From Gammaproteobacteria bacterium (GTDB lineage: Bacteria > Pseudomonadota > Gammaproteobacteria > Ga0077536): a stretch of DNA of 41,734 bases. The stretch spans positions 1 to 41,734 of the forward strand of contig JACQWY010000056.1 of NCBI GenBank assembly GCA_016209015.1, read 5' to 3'. Positions within the stretch are counted from its first letter, which is position 1; the number at the start of each line of letters is the position of its first letter. The notes beneath the pieces are model-generated. The model was not told the origin of the DNA. It searched no databases and saw only the letters and a program-made list of their open reading frames with translations. Below, piece after piece: positions 20,148 through 24,412 of the stretch. The position numbers and the translations under genes were made by a program.

Positions 20148-21996
20148 TCGCTGCTTTCGCTCCGAGATAGTGGTCGAACAGTTTGCGGGCGATCGGCGCC
20201 GCCGTCCCGCTGCCGGAGCCGCCGTTCTCCACGATGATCGCGACGGCGATCTGCGGATCGTCGACGGGCGCGAAGGAGATGAAGAGCGCGTGGTCGCGCA
20301 GCGCCTTCTGCACGTCCTCGTTCTTCACCGTCTTGTCCTGCGCGATCCCGAAGAGCTGGGCGGTGCCCGTCTTGCCCGCGAAGCGGTAGGCCGCGCCCTC
20401 CCCGCTCTTGCGGGCGGTGCCCGTCTTGCCGTGCACGACTTCGACCATCCCGTTGATGACGTCGTTCCAGAACTGCGGGCTGCGGAGCTGCACTTTCTCG
20501 CGCTCGTAGACCCCGGCCTGCGTGGCGGTGTGGGTCAGCGGATCCTCGATTTGCCCGACGACGTGCGGGACGACGACCATGCCGCGGTTCGCGATGATGG
20601 CCGCCGCATGCGCGAGCTGGAGCGGCGAGGCCAGCATGAAGCCCTGGCCGATGCCGTTGATGAGCGTCTCGCCGGGGAACCAGGGCAGCTTGCGCGTGCG
20701 CCGCTTCCATTCGCGCGACGGCAGGAGGCCGTTCGGTTCGCCCGGCAGGTCGACGCCCGTCGCGCGACCGAGGCCGAACTTCGCGAGGAAGCTGCTCATG
20801 CGATCGATGCCGAGATCCTTCGCGAGCGAGTAGTAGTAGACGTCGCAGGACTCGGCGATGGAGCGCGTGAGATCGACCGTGCCATGGCCCCACTTCAGCC
20901 AGCAGCGGTAATGATGCTCGTCGCCCGGCAGCGCGAACCAGCCCGGGCAGAACACGTGATCGGAAGGCGTACGCGTGCCGTAGTCGAGACCGGCGAGCGC
21001 CATCATGGGCTTGATCGTCGAGCCCGGCGGATACTGACCCTGGAGCGCGCGGTTGTAGAGCGGTCGCGACGGCGAATCGCGCAGGCTCGAGTAGAGCGCA
21101 CGGCTGATGCCGTTCACGAACTCGTTCGGGTCGTAGGACGGATTGCTGACGAAGGCGAGCACCCCGCCCGAGCCCGGCTCGATCGCGACGATCGCGCCTT
21201 TCTCCTCGCCGAGCGCCTCGATCGCGATTTTCTGCAGCGTCGTGTCGAGCGAGAGATAGATGTCGCTGCCTTGCACCGGCGGCTTGCGCTCCACGACGCG
21301 CAGCACGCGGCCCTGGGCGTTGACCTCGACGTGCTGGTAGCCCACTTCGCCGTGCAGCACGCCCTCCCAGGATTTCTCCACGCCGTCCTTGCCGATGTGG
21401 GTCGTCGCGGCGTAGTTGCCGGGATCGATGCTCTTCAGCTCCTCCTCGCTGATGCGCCCGACGTAGCCGACGAGGTGCGCGGTCTGCTCGCCGAGCGGAT
21501 AGTAGCGCGAGAGATGGCCGACGATGCTGAAGCCCGGGAAGAGATGGCGGCGCTCGGAGAAGATCGCGACCTCCTCCTCGGTGAGTCCGGTCTTCAGCGG
21601 CACGGTGTCGAAGCGCCGCTTCTGCTTCAGCTCGTCGTGGAAGCGATCGAGCTCGTCGTCGTCGATGCGCACGAGCTTGCGCAGCGCGGCGACCCGATCC
21701 TCGAGATTCTTGATGCCTTCGGGTACGACCTCGAGCGAGAACGACGGCCGGTTGTCGGCGAGCAGCACGCCGTCGCGGCTGTAGATGAGACCGCGCGTCG
21801 GCGGGATCGGCACGACCTTCAGCCGGTTCTCCTGCGAGAGCGTCGTGTAGTGCTCGTGGTTGACGATCTGGAGCTCCGCGAGCCGCCCGACGATGACGAG
21901 CATGCCGAGGAACATCGCCGCCACCGAGAACCAGATGCGCGAGAGGAAGAGCCGCGATTCGCGCTCCGGTTCCTTGAGCTCCGGCAGCAGGCTCAC
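20128..21996 (-). CDS. mrdA: Penicillin-binding protein 2 (elongasome transpeptidase)
   Basis: A 622-residue class B PBP that cross-links new glycan made by RodA. There is one membrane anchor (about 20-43), then a pedestal domain (NRLKVVPIPPTRGLIYSRDG), then the transpeptidase domain. Its motifs are STIK (326-329, active Ser326), SCD (383-385) and AGKTGTAQ (Lys542). A second KTGTA occurs 18 residues earlier (524-528), where relatives have NP.GTA or PRGTA. The start is GTG at 21996, overlapping the mreD stop by 4 bp (GTGA), followed by the usual MSLLPELKEPERE. The frame is open far upstream over mreD, but that is not part of this gene. Confidence 0.96.
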   Translation of the reverse strand: MSLLPELKEPERESRLFLSRIWFSVAAMFLGMLVIVGRLAELQIVNHEHYTTLSQENRLKVVPIPPTRGLIYSRDGVLLADNRPSFSLEVVPEGIKNLEDRVAALRKLVRIDDDELDRFHDELKQKRRFDTVPLKTGLTEEEVAIFSERRHLFPGFSIVGHLSRYYPLGEQTAHLVGYVGRISEEELKSIDPGNYAATTHIGKDGVEKSWEGVLHGEVGYQHVEVNAQGRVLRVVERKPPVQGSDIYLSLDTTLQKIAIEALGEEKGAIVAIEPGSGGVLAFVSNPSYDPNEFVNGISRALYSSLRDSPSRPLYNRALQGQYPPGSTIKPMMALAGLDYGTRTPSDHVFCPGWFALPGDEHHYRCWLKWGHGTVDLTRSIAESCDVYYYSLAKDLGIDRMSSFLAKFGLGRATGVDLPGEPNGLLPSREWKRRTRKLPWFPGETLINGIGQGFMLASPLQLAHAAAIIANRGMVVVPHVVGQIEDPLTHTATQAGVYEREKVQLRSPQFWNDVINGMVEVVHGKTGTARKSGEGAAYRFAGKTGTAQLFGIAQDKTVKNEDVQKALRDHALFISFAPVDDPQIAVAIIVENGGSGSGTAAPIARKLFDHYLGAKAANGNSSG

Positions 21997-22478
21997 GCCA
22001 CGTTCGCCTTGCGCCTGAGATCGCGCAGGATGATGAACACCCACGGCCAGAGCACCGCGCTGCTGATCGCACCGAACAGATAGCCGAAGCCGTATTTCAC
22101 GGAACCGAAACCGTTGTAGATGCCGAGCATCACGAGGAGATACAGGAACACGACCGTGCCGACGACGAGAGCCTGCTGGAACAGCGGAAAGACGCGGACG
22201 CGCTGGTGATAGAGCACGGCGAGATAGGCGACGGCGGCGAGGCCGAACGCGTGCTGGCCGAGCAGCGTGCCGTTCAGCACGTCGAGCAGGAGACCGATGC
22301 ACCACGCCGTCAGCACGCCGACACGGCCCGGCAGCGCCATGCACCAGTAGATGAGGACCATCGGCACCCAGGCGGGCCGCCACGAATCGGCCCACGAGGG
22401 CATCGGCAGCGCGGCGAGCATGAACGCGACGAGCACGCTCACCGCGACGACGAGCCACCAGCGCGGGTTGTAGTTCAT
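21993..22478 (-). CDS. mreD: Rod shape-determining protein MreD
   Basis: A 161-residue inner-membrane protein with five or six hydrophobic segments, containing the family signatures PAWVPMVLIYWCMALPGRVGV and GLLLDVLNGTLLGQHAFGL. MreD works with MreC and RodA/PBP2 in the elongation complex. It is linked by 4-bp overlaps to mreC before it and mrdA after it. Length agrees with E. coli MreD (162). Confidence 0.95.
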   Translation of the reverse strand: MNYNPRWWLVVAVSVLVAFMLAALPMPSWADSWRPAWVPMVLIYWCMALPGRVGVLTAWCIGLLLDVLNGTLLGQHAFGLAAVAYLAVLYHQRVRVFPLFQQALVVGTVVFLYLLVMLGIYNGFGSVKYGFGYLFGAISSAVLWPWVFIILRDLRRKANVA

Positions 22479-23329
22479 TGCCGCGCGGCTTCCGCGCCCG
22501 CCGCGCCACGCTGATGCGGCCAGACGAGCAGCACTTCGCGCGAACGCCCGATGTGCGCGCTCGGCGCGACGATGATCTTCGCGAACGGCTCGCCGGGCTC
22601 GACGTCGAGGGACTTCACCTCGCCGACGGGATAGCCGGCCGGAAACTGGTGACCGAGGCCGGAGCAGACGACGAGATCGCCGACCCTGATGTCGGCGTTC
22701 GTCGGCACGAAGGACAACACGAGCAGATCGCCCTCGCCTTCGCCGTTCGCGACGGCGCGCACGCCGCTGCGGTTGATCTGCACGGGCAGCGCGTGGCGGG
22801 GATCGGTGATGAGCAGCACCGTGCTCGTGAAGGGTCCCACCTGCATCACCTGGCCCACGATGCCGAACGCGTCCGCGACCGGCTGGCCCTCGTAGACGCC
22901 CTGACGCGCGCCGCGGTTGATGACGATCTGCCGCGAAGAAGCGCCCGGCTCGATCGAGAGCGTGTCCGCGACCACGACTTCCTCGCGGAGATCGGCGGTC
23001 GAGTCCAGCAGCTTGCGCAGGCGCTCGTTCTCGCGCTCGAGTGCCGAGAACTTCACGGTGTGCGAGCGGAGCATGAGGTTCTCGGCGCGCAGCCGCTCGT
23101 TGTCCGCGATCAGGACTTCGCGCGCCTTGAAATTCTCGGCGAGCCCGTCGCCGATGCGCATGGGCAGCGCGACGAGATATTGAATGGGGTAGACGGCGAC
23201 CGAGAGCGCACCGCGGATCGCCGCCAGGTGCTGGTGGCGGTGATCAATGGAAATCAGCAGGAACGACAGGATGACGCACGTGATGAATCTCGCGGTGGGC
23301 GAGGCAGCATCTGTGAACAGCGGCTTGAT
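22475..23329 (-). CDS. mreC: Rod shape-determining protein MreC, apparent AUC start
   Basis: MreC is the periplasmic scaffold that activates PBP2/RodA. The conserved N-terminus reads IKPLFTDAASPTARF, then the transmembrane segment ITCVILSFLLISI, then DHRHQHLAAIRGAL. It lines up with E. coli MKPIFSRGPS, but the first codon is ATC (23327-23329). GGAGG stands six bases before it. From the mreB stop TAA (same frame) to this point there is no ATG, GTG or TTG. A CTG lies three codons on. The first in-frame ATG (23161) would delete the membrane anchor. A coiled coil (about 70-110) and the two beta-barrel domains (VVINRGARQGVYEGQPV, ADIRVGDLVVCSGLG) are intact. With the ATC start the product is 284 residues. 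It lies 27 bp after mreB and overlaps mreD by 4 bp. Confidence 0.88.
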   Translation of the reverse strand: MKPLFTDAASPTARFITCVILSFLLISIDHRHQHLAAIRGALSVAVYPIQYLVALPMRIGDGLAENFKAREVLIADNERLRAENLMLRSHTVKFSALERENERLRKLLDSTADLREEVVVADTLSIEPGASSRQIVINRGARQGVYEGQPVADAFGIVGQVMQVGPFTSTVLLITDPRHALPVQINRSGVRAVANGEGEGDLLVLSFVPTNADIRVGDLVVCSGLGHQFPAGYPVGEVKSLDVEPGEPFAKIIVAPSAHIGRSREVLLVWPHQRGAAGAEAARQ

Positions 23330-23356
23330 AGGCGGCCTCCGGGAAAGCGCGCCCGA

Positions 23357-24412
<1,056 letters not shown>

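Follow-up and report, generated by a model that had tools for sequence, protein, structure and literature searches.

A conserved AUU, AUC or AUA start codon inferred for mreC in many Gammaproteobacteria

The start of mreC in a gammaproteobacterial genome of the Ga0077536 lineage (5.7 Mb, 65 contigs, completeness 100) appears to be an AUC codon at positions 23329-23327, on the minus strand of the 41,734-nt stretch of DNA analysed here (the window), and, as judged from sequence, this placement is well supported. Relatives keep ATC, ATT or ATA at the same place, and a canonical start is never missing from mreB or mreD at these loci, so that the codon cannot readily be put down to chance. The apparent trait is far wider than one genome, extending to about half of the families examined, Pseudomonas among them. 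We consider it probable that this conserved weak start limits MreC and exposes it to initiation factor IF3, the low output and the IF3 control both being inferred. Below, AUH stands for AUU, AUC or AUA (ATT, ATC or ATA in DNA), and canonical refers to ATG, GTG or TTG.

The relevant features of the window are as follows:

22475..23329, minus strand: mreC coding sequence read from ATC, 284 aa plus stop (Pfam MreC PF04085, E = 1.2e-42)
23327..23329, minus strand: putative mreC initiation codon ATC (AUC), the aligned first codon
23336..23340, minus strand: Shine-Dalgarno (SD) sequence GGAGG, 6 bases (CCGCCT) 5′ of the ATC
23240..23299, minus strand: MreC membrane anchor, approximately residues 11-30, from hydropathy windows
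23159..23161, minus strand: ATG, codon 57, the next canonical codon in the mreC frame
23357..24406, minus strand: mreB, longest ORF from TTG (Pfam MreB_Mbl, E = 9.4e-148)
21993..22478, minus strand: mreD (Pfam MreD, E = 3.2e-24), the ATG of which overlaps the mreC stop (ATGA)

Assignment to MreC was made to depend on the PF04085 score and on the gene order, and the window meets both criteria, with 145.6 bits against a curated cut-off of 28 and with mreB-mreC-mreD in sequence; the genome yields no second MreC match. The mreB stop codon TAA (23359-23357) is followed by 16 bases and then by GGAGG, which places the putative start 27 bases from the stop, and the ATC is followed by AAG CCG CTG TTC ACA (KPLFT), the frame from the TAA onwards translating as SGALSRRPP-IKPLFT... 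An earlier note on this DNA had proposed an AUC start behind a strong SD, with GGAGG six bases before the ATC and no ATG, GTG or TTG between the mreB TAA and the ATC. The sequence confirms these local details, the first canonical codon in frame being codon 57, and the family conservation, the same-locus controls and the SD data described below agree with the start itself. The span 23159-23356 given in that note is bounded by the mreB stop and the ATG of codon 57 and does not represent the bounds of the coding sequence. The duplex of the window GGAGG with the anti-SD has an energy of -9.5 kcal/mol. Hydrophobicity of MreC peaks at residues 11-30 (Kyte-Doolittle 15-residue mean up to 2.39), and a second window exceeding 1.6 begins at residue 41 (1.69); both precede codon 57, so that a start at the ATG at 23161 would indeed cost the protein its membrane segment.

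Within the family, MreC was found in 32 of 36 genomes, and 30 loci were read, including the window; the order-level search covers the same 36 genomes, and the genus is represented by the window genome only, which made it necessary to go to the level of the class. At the 26 loci where the match reaches codon 1, this codon is ATC in 19 (window included), ATT in six and CTG in one (L023), and none of the 26 has ATG, GTG or TTG there. At the remaining four (L026-L029) the match starts after codon 1, and the HMM puts AUH at or adjoining codon 1 in all four; their starts are unsettled, with the HMM alignment beginning only at positions 5-11, and there are canonical codons 3 and 8 codons upstream in L027 and a GTG two codons downstream in L028 and L029. 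The L027 locus (G022:C3:401995-402810), from a small (2.0 Mb) family genome, also has one in-frame TGA within the MreC match.

In the class, MreC was found in 331 of 369 genomes. A search of genome contigs by the window protein alone recovered no relative, and a class alignment was used there instead; the viral contigs searched likewise contained no relative. With one genome sampled per family, the start could be read in 148 of 182 families, the unread ones comprising 15 not taken into the sample, 10 searched without a locus being retrieved, and the rest without a usable match. AUH occupies aligned codon 1 in 77 of the 148 (ATC 36, ATT 29, ATA 12), two of these (L162 and L181) being aligned from a position other than the first. 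No canonical codon occurs anywhere from the upstream stop through codon 12 in 65 of the 77, and an upstream canonical codon is absent from 70, seven having one in frame. In six further families AUH lies 1-2 codons off position 1 (L119 and L153 also have a canonical codon just upstream); 37 have a canonical codon within 2 codons of position 1, including L068, L081 and L129, in which codon 1 is ATT and the canonical codon is two codons away; 26 fall outside these groups, mostly with a canonical codon further upstream, and two could not be aligned. The 93 families aligned from position 1 have ATC (35), ATT (31), ATA (12), ATG (12), GTG (1), TTG (1) or CTA (1). The AUH share may be slightly underestimated, because three loci not counted as AUH (L040, L067 and L337) carry ATA, ATC or ATT 1-3 codons ahead of the aligned position; L040 repeats an IKP-type start, and L067 also has an ATG at codon 4.

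Two additional sets were read. Twenty further class genomes have AUH at codon 1 in nine, ATG in seven, TTG in one and neither in three; the nine include all five genomes of family f160, the MreC of which resembles that of Pseudomonas, and three of the nine (L329, L330 and L333) have an in-frame canonical codon upstream. A non-random set of 80 named records, chosen by one peptide pattern, has AUH at codon 1 in 66 (ATC 31, ATT 19, ATA 16), 50 of these being free of canonical codons between the stop and codon 12; the remainder consists of four with a canonical codon within 2 codons (L225 has ATC at codon 1), nine others and one with AUH adjoining. Named examples are Pseudomonas sp. BN417 (ATC), Stutzerimonas urumqiensis (ATC), Methylomonas methanica (ATA) and Thiocapsa roseopersicina (ATC). 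Further start shifts are possible in a Halioglobus MAG (L191), in which codon 1 is GTT and codon 4 is TTG, and in Competibacter relatives (L220-L222), which read GTC, ATC or TCC at the first codon and TTG at the fourth, and have either TTG or GTG nine codons upstream.

Pooling of the loci aligned from position 1 (26 family, 102 class sample and 69 named, after removal of L188, which is the same stretch as L043) gave an alignment of 197, in which codon 1 is one of ATG, GTG, TTG, CTG, ATT, ATC and ATA in all except two (CTA and GTT); the same seven codons make up only 2-15% at each of the six preceding positions. AUH is found at codon 1 in 173 of the 197. Lysine at residue 2 is kept in 172 and phenylalanine at residue 5 in all 197, although F5, with the adjacent residues, also served to anchor the alignment. 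The earlier note had named relatives with ATG or GTG at this codon as a finding that would refute its reading: such relatives do exist, with 19 ATG and one GTG among the 197, and they form a minority that does not extend to the 26 family loci.

The neighbouring genes served as controls. A canonical start is lacking, from the upstream stop to the anchor residue, in 87 of 150 mreC loci, as opposed to none of 149 mreB and none of 162 mreD loci, with 14 mreC loci and one mreD locus that fall short of the anchor excluded, along with ORFs running off contig ends. These counts are not independent, since many of the loci come from close relatives. For infC, the known non-canonical gene, reading by eye showed an Ile codon where the start is expected in all 27 loci in which the motif was found (30 were fetched), one of them (L278) with an additional ATG five codons upstream; in the window genome (L344, C51:91600-92500) the infC start region reads TAG GAG GAT TGA GTT ATC GCT, with GGAG upstream, in the manner of known non-canonical infC starts.

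Outside the class the picture is different: in other classes of the phylum, 19 of 20 relatives have an in-frame canonical codon no more than 11 codons upstream of a weakly aligned position, and the remaining one (L321) is unalignable. Four of the 32 plasmid-collection records with a match (L298-L301) were also read, and within the class mreC starts with ATG in E. coli K-12 and Aeromonas caviae (L301) and is annotated from GTG in Acinetobacter baumannii (L300) and Legionella adelaidensis (L299), which means that a weak start can be dispensed with. Two genomes of family f107 have an ATG nine codons upstream, and their MreC looks betaproteobacterial. Without a formal inference of gain and loss, we read the AUH start as a putative trait of Gammaproteobacteria sensu stricto that is absent from the E. 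coli/Aeromonas-like group and from other, scattered members.

The fourth plasmid-collection record, CP123788.1 (L298; P. aeruginosa, 1131 bases, deposited as a plasmid), reads TAG GAG CGG ATC ATC AAA CCG CTA TTC. Either ATC could serve as the start, and codons were counted from the second. The annotated start of its mreC (L298 219-267) is the GTG of codon 17, which falls within the anchor, 16 codons past the conserved second ATC. A paper on P. aeruginosa MreC structure, available in part (PMC8137920), assigns both the cytoplasmic residues and the membrane region to the "first 14 amino acids", which seem too few for the two together, and its Arg175 matches residue 191 counted from the CP123788.1 ATC, an identical offset of 16. 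Its numbering fits a truncated start, no discussion of which was found in the portion of the text available. The expectation of the earlier note that a gene caller would truncate MreC is thus met in this record, and also in the window, where the table-11 ORF comprises only 228 aa from codon 57, there being no earlier canonical codon in frame. At least one deposited P. aeruginosa record lacks the MreC N-terminus, and the same numbering is found in structural work; constructs beginning at the GTG would be without the cytoplasmic tip and part of the anchor.

The SD sequence before AUH-type mreC is strong (mean -7.14 kcal/mol, n = 173, vs -3.80 in windows 60-200 bases upstream) and well spaced (median 7 bases, IQR 6-8). 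At long loci it exceeds those of the neighbouring genes (-7.06, n = 117, vs -4.36 for mreB, n = 155, and -4.92 for mreD, n = 160). AUG-type mreC averages -3.44 in the whole set (n = 24; p = 8e-7 vs AUH); at long loci it averages -5.40 (n = 11) and does not differ from mreB or mreD. After correction for kinship, which left eight pairs, the link between AUH and a strong SD was not significant (on average 3.4 pairs with and 0.2 against; median p = 0.25). Folding energy near the start was -13.3 kcal/mol for AUH (G+C 0.50) and -17.3 for canonical starts (G+C 0.57), leaving little difference when G+C is allowed for by eye.

No preference for one of the three AUH codons was detected, the third base (U, C or A) tracking inner Ile codon usage (chi-square p = 0.40), and G in third position is rare, at 19 of 192 for codon 1 vs 50 of 96 for the Pro3 codon. 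On a FastTree tree of 161 MreB+MreC sequences, built with the codon-1 region left out, the minimum numbers of changes are 38 among U, C and A, 7 to or from G, and at least 9 between AUH and canonical. As the third base drifts and yet is rarely G, the conserved property looks like "not AUG". The criteria for a conserved AUH-start gene that can be judged from sequence, namely absence of a canonical alternative, occurrence in many species with avoidance of AUG, and a strong, well-spaced SD, are all fulfilled.

We propose that mreC translation would be initiated at AUC 23329-23327 by the ordinary initiator tRNA, in which case MreC very likely begins with fMet. The strong, well-spaced SD would recruit the 30S subunit to a codon disfavoured by IF3, so that MreC synthesis would be limited compared with that of MreB and MreD from the same operon, and lower IF3 activity would raise MreC output. 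In much of the Gammaproteobacteria, selection would keep the third base off G and let it drift among U, C and A, the inferred reason being control of PBP2/RodA activity by the balance of MreC and MreD. Sequence shows where the start lies, that it is conserved, that its SD is the stronger one and that G is rare there; no protein, ribosome-profiling or reporter data stand behind the claims on start or output. That MreC is low relative to MreB and MreD and sensitive to IF3, much as the earlier note had suggested for low output and initiation factors, is an inference from precedents concerning IF3, S. aureus, and E. coli MreC and MreD, all drawn from papers available in part. Unless the codon is AUG, GUG or UUG, IF3 destabilises initiation, which is how infC and sigR are controlled, and few conserved starts beyond these three codons have been characterised (PMC5472188); conserved AUU and AUA starts with extended SD sequences lower output in S. 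aureus (PMC13009471); and in E. coli overexpression of MreC gives shorter, wider cells, with MreD suppressing at least the shortening, and the balance of the two has been proposed to set PBP2 activity (PMC7793260).

The gene infC has an AUH start in the class and in the window genome, as mreC does; unlike mreC, it encodes IF3 itself and its start closes a feedback loop (PMC5472188, in the part available), whereas mreC, encoding a cell-wall scaffold, would be a target and not a sensor. The same partial source describes Streptomyces sigR, which resembles mreC in having a non-canonical start and a conserved extended ribosome-binding site and in having been missed by annotation, and in which the GTC start keeps the protein below its partner RsrA, similar to the limitation proposed for MreC. 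It differs in that the codon is GTC (32 of 34 Streptomyces) or GTT (2) and not AUH, and in that repression of the non-canonical start by IF3 has been demonstrated experimentally (PMC5472188). The S. aureus genes ccpN (AUA) and cvfC1 (AUU) share with mreC a conserved AUH and an extended SD, with reporter output below that of AUG, as far as the accessible text of PMC13009471 goes; unlike mreC, they are staphylococcal and encode a transcriptional repressor and a small protein. In the window genome, pcnB (L342) has no ATG but does have a GTG in the 30 codons before the family match, and its start was not placed. In E. coli, pcnB, the gene for poly(A) polymerase, is a different gene sharing with mreC an AUU start, which was reportedly found by Binns and Masters in 2002 to limit output.

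Whether the mreC start is regulatory or a fixed setting of dose cannot be told from sequence. The AUH start might be real and provide only a fixed low level, or be a frozen accident offset by the strong SD, without regulation by IF3. This is the most serious competitor, and we hold it possible but not favoured. It would accommodate the strong SD before AUH, which may restore output, so that the net MreC level is not readable from sequence; it would also accommodate a third base that follows inner Ile codon usage and the fact that E. coli manages with ATG. A pure accident, however, should revert often, ATG being one point change away, and the tree requires only the 7 changes to or from G against 38 among U, C and A. 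Re-initiation, with ribosomes that finish mreB translating most of mreC and poor codons being tolerated, would suit the short distance between the two genes in the window, but appears improbable across the class: the stop-to-start distance has a median of 70.5 bases (IQR 34-116, n = 172) at AUH loci vs 49 (n = 23) at AUG loci (p = 0.21), which is no significant difference, and 78 of the 172 AUH loci lie within 60 bases of the mreB stop.

A start further downstream, at the CTG of codon 4 or the ATG of codon 57, is very unlikely, even though annotators do choose such sites, as with the P. aeruginosa GTG. The CTG three codons on, raised in the earlier note as a possible alternative, is present in the window and is not kept as a start codon, the pooled loci having CTG (45 of 197), TTA (41) or CTA (27) there, so that the position mostly just encodes Leu; moreover, the SD spacing suits codon 1, the residues before the anchor (K2, F5) are conserved, and the product from ATG 57 would lack the anchor. 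The opposite possibility, a canonical start upstream with Ile as an internal residue, can hardly be maintained: an in-frame codon of this kind exists in the seven AUH families mentioned above, but stops occur 2-5 codons upstream of codon 1 in 8 of 30 family loci, the upstream residues are unconserved, and codon 1 is a potential start in 195 of 197 loci. In the window itself, which has no such codon, an upstream start is refuted short of stop-codon readthrough. A sequencing or assembly error in an original ATG, for which read support data are lacking either way, is effectively eliminated by the family loci sharing the codon (25 of 26 ATC or ATT, the other CTG).

Our preferred reading is that of a weak start under conservation, which would keep MreC low and place it under the influence of IF3. 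Conserved non-canonical starts are already known, and mreC would be a new, widespread case. Among the matches listed in the open-licence PMC literature, represented mostly by titles and abstract openings, we found no paper linking mreC to a non-canonical start. A list of bacterial genes preferring non-AUG starts, said to have been posted on arXiv by Gvozdjak and Samanta in 2020, could include it. The AUH start of mreC may have gone unnoticed because E. coli, the usual model, has ATG, and, as a practical consequence, database records can list MreC without its full membrane anchor.

Conservation of the AUH start suggests that MreC synthesis is deliberately held back. Its occurrence in a morphogenesis gene would extend such starts from an initiation factor to cell-wall growth, and would make it straightforward to look for a coupling between elongation and translation initiation. 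More tentatively, and by inference only, mreC might be gated by IF3, with the MreC:MreD ratio, and hence PBP2-RodA activity, set by how much free IF3 or initiation capacity the cell has. If this is true, lateral wall synthesis would be tied to the translation state in many Gammaproteobacteria, a link that would be absent from species with an AUG mreC, such as E. coli.
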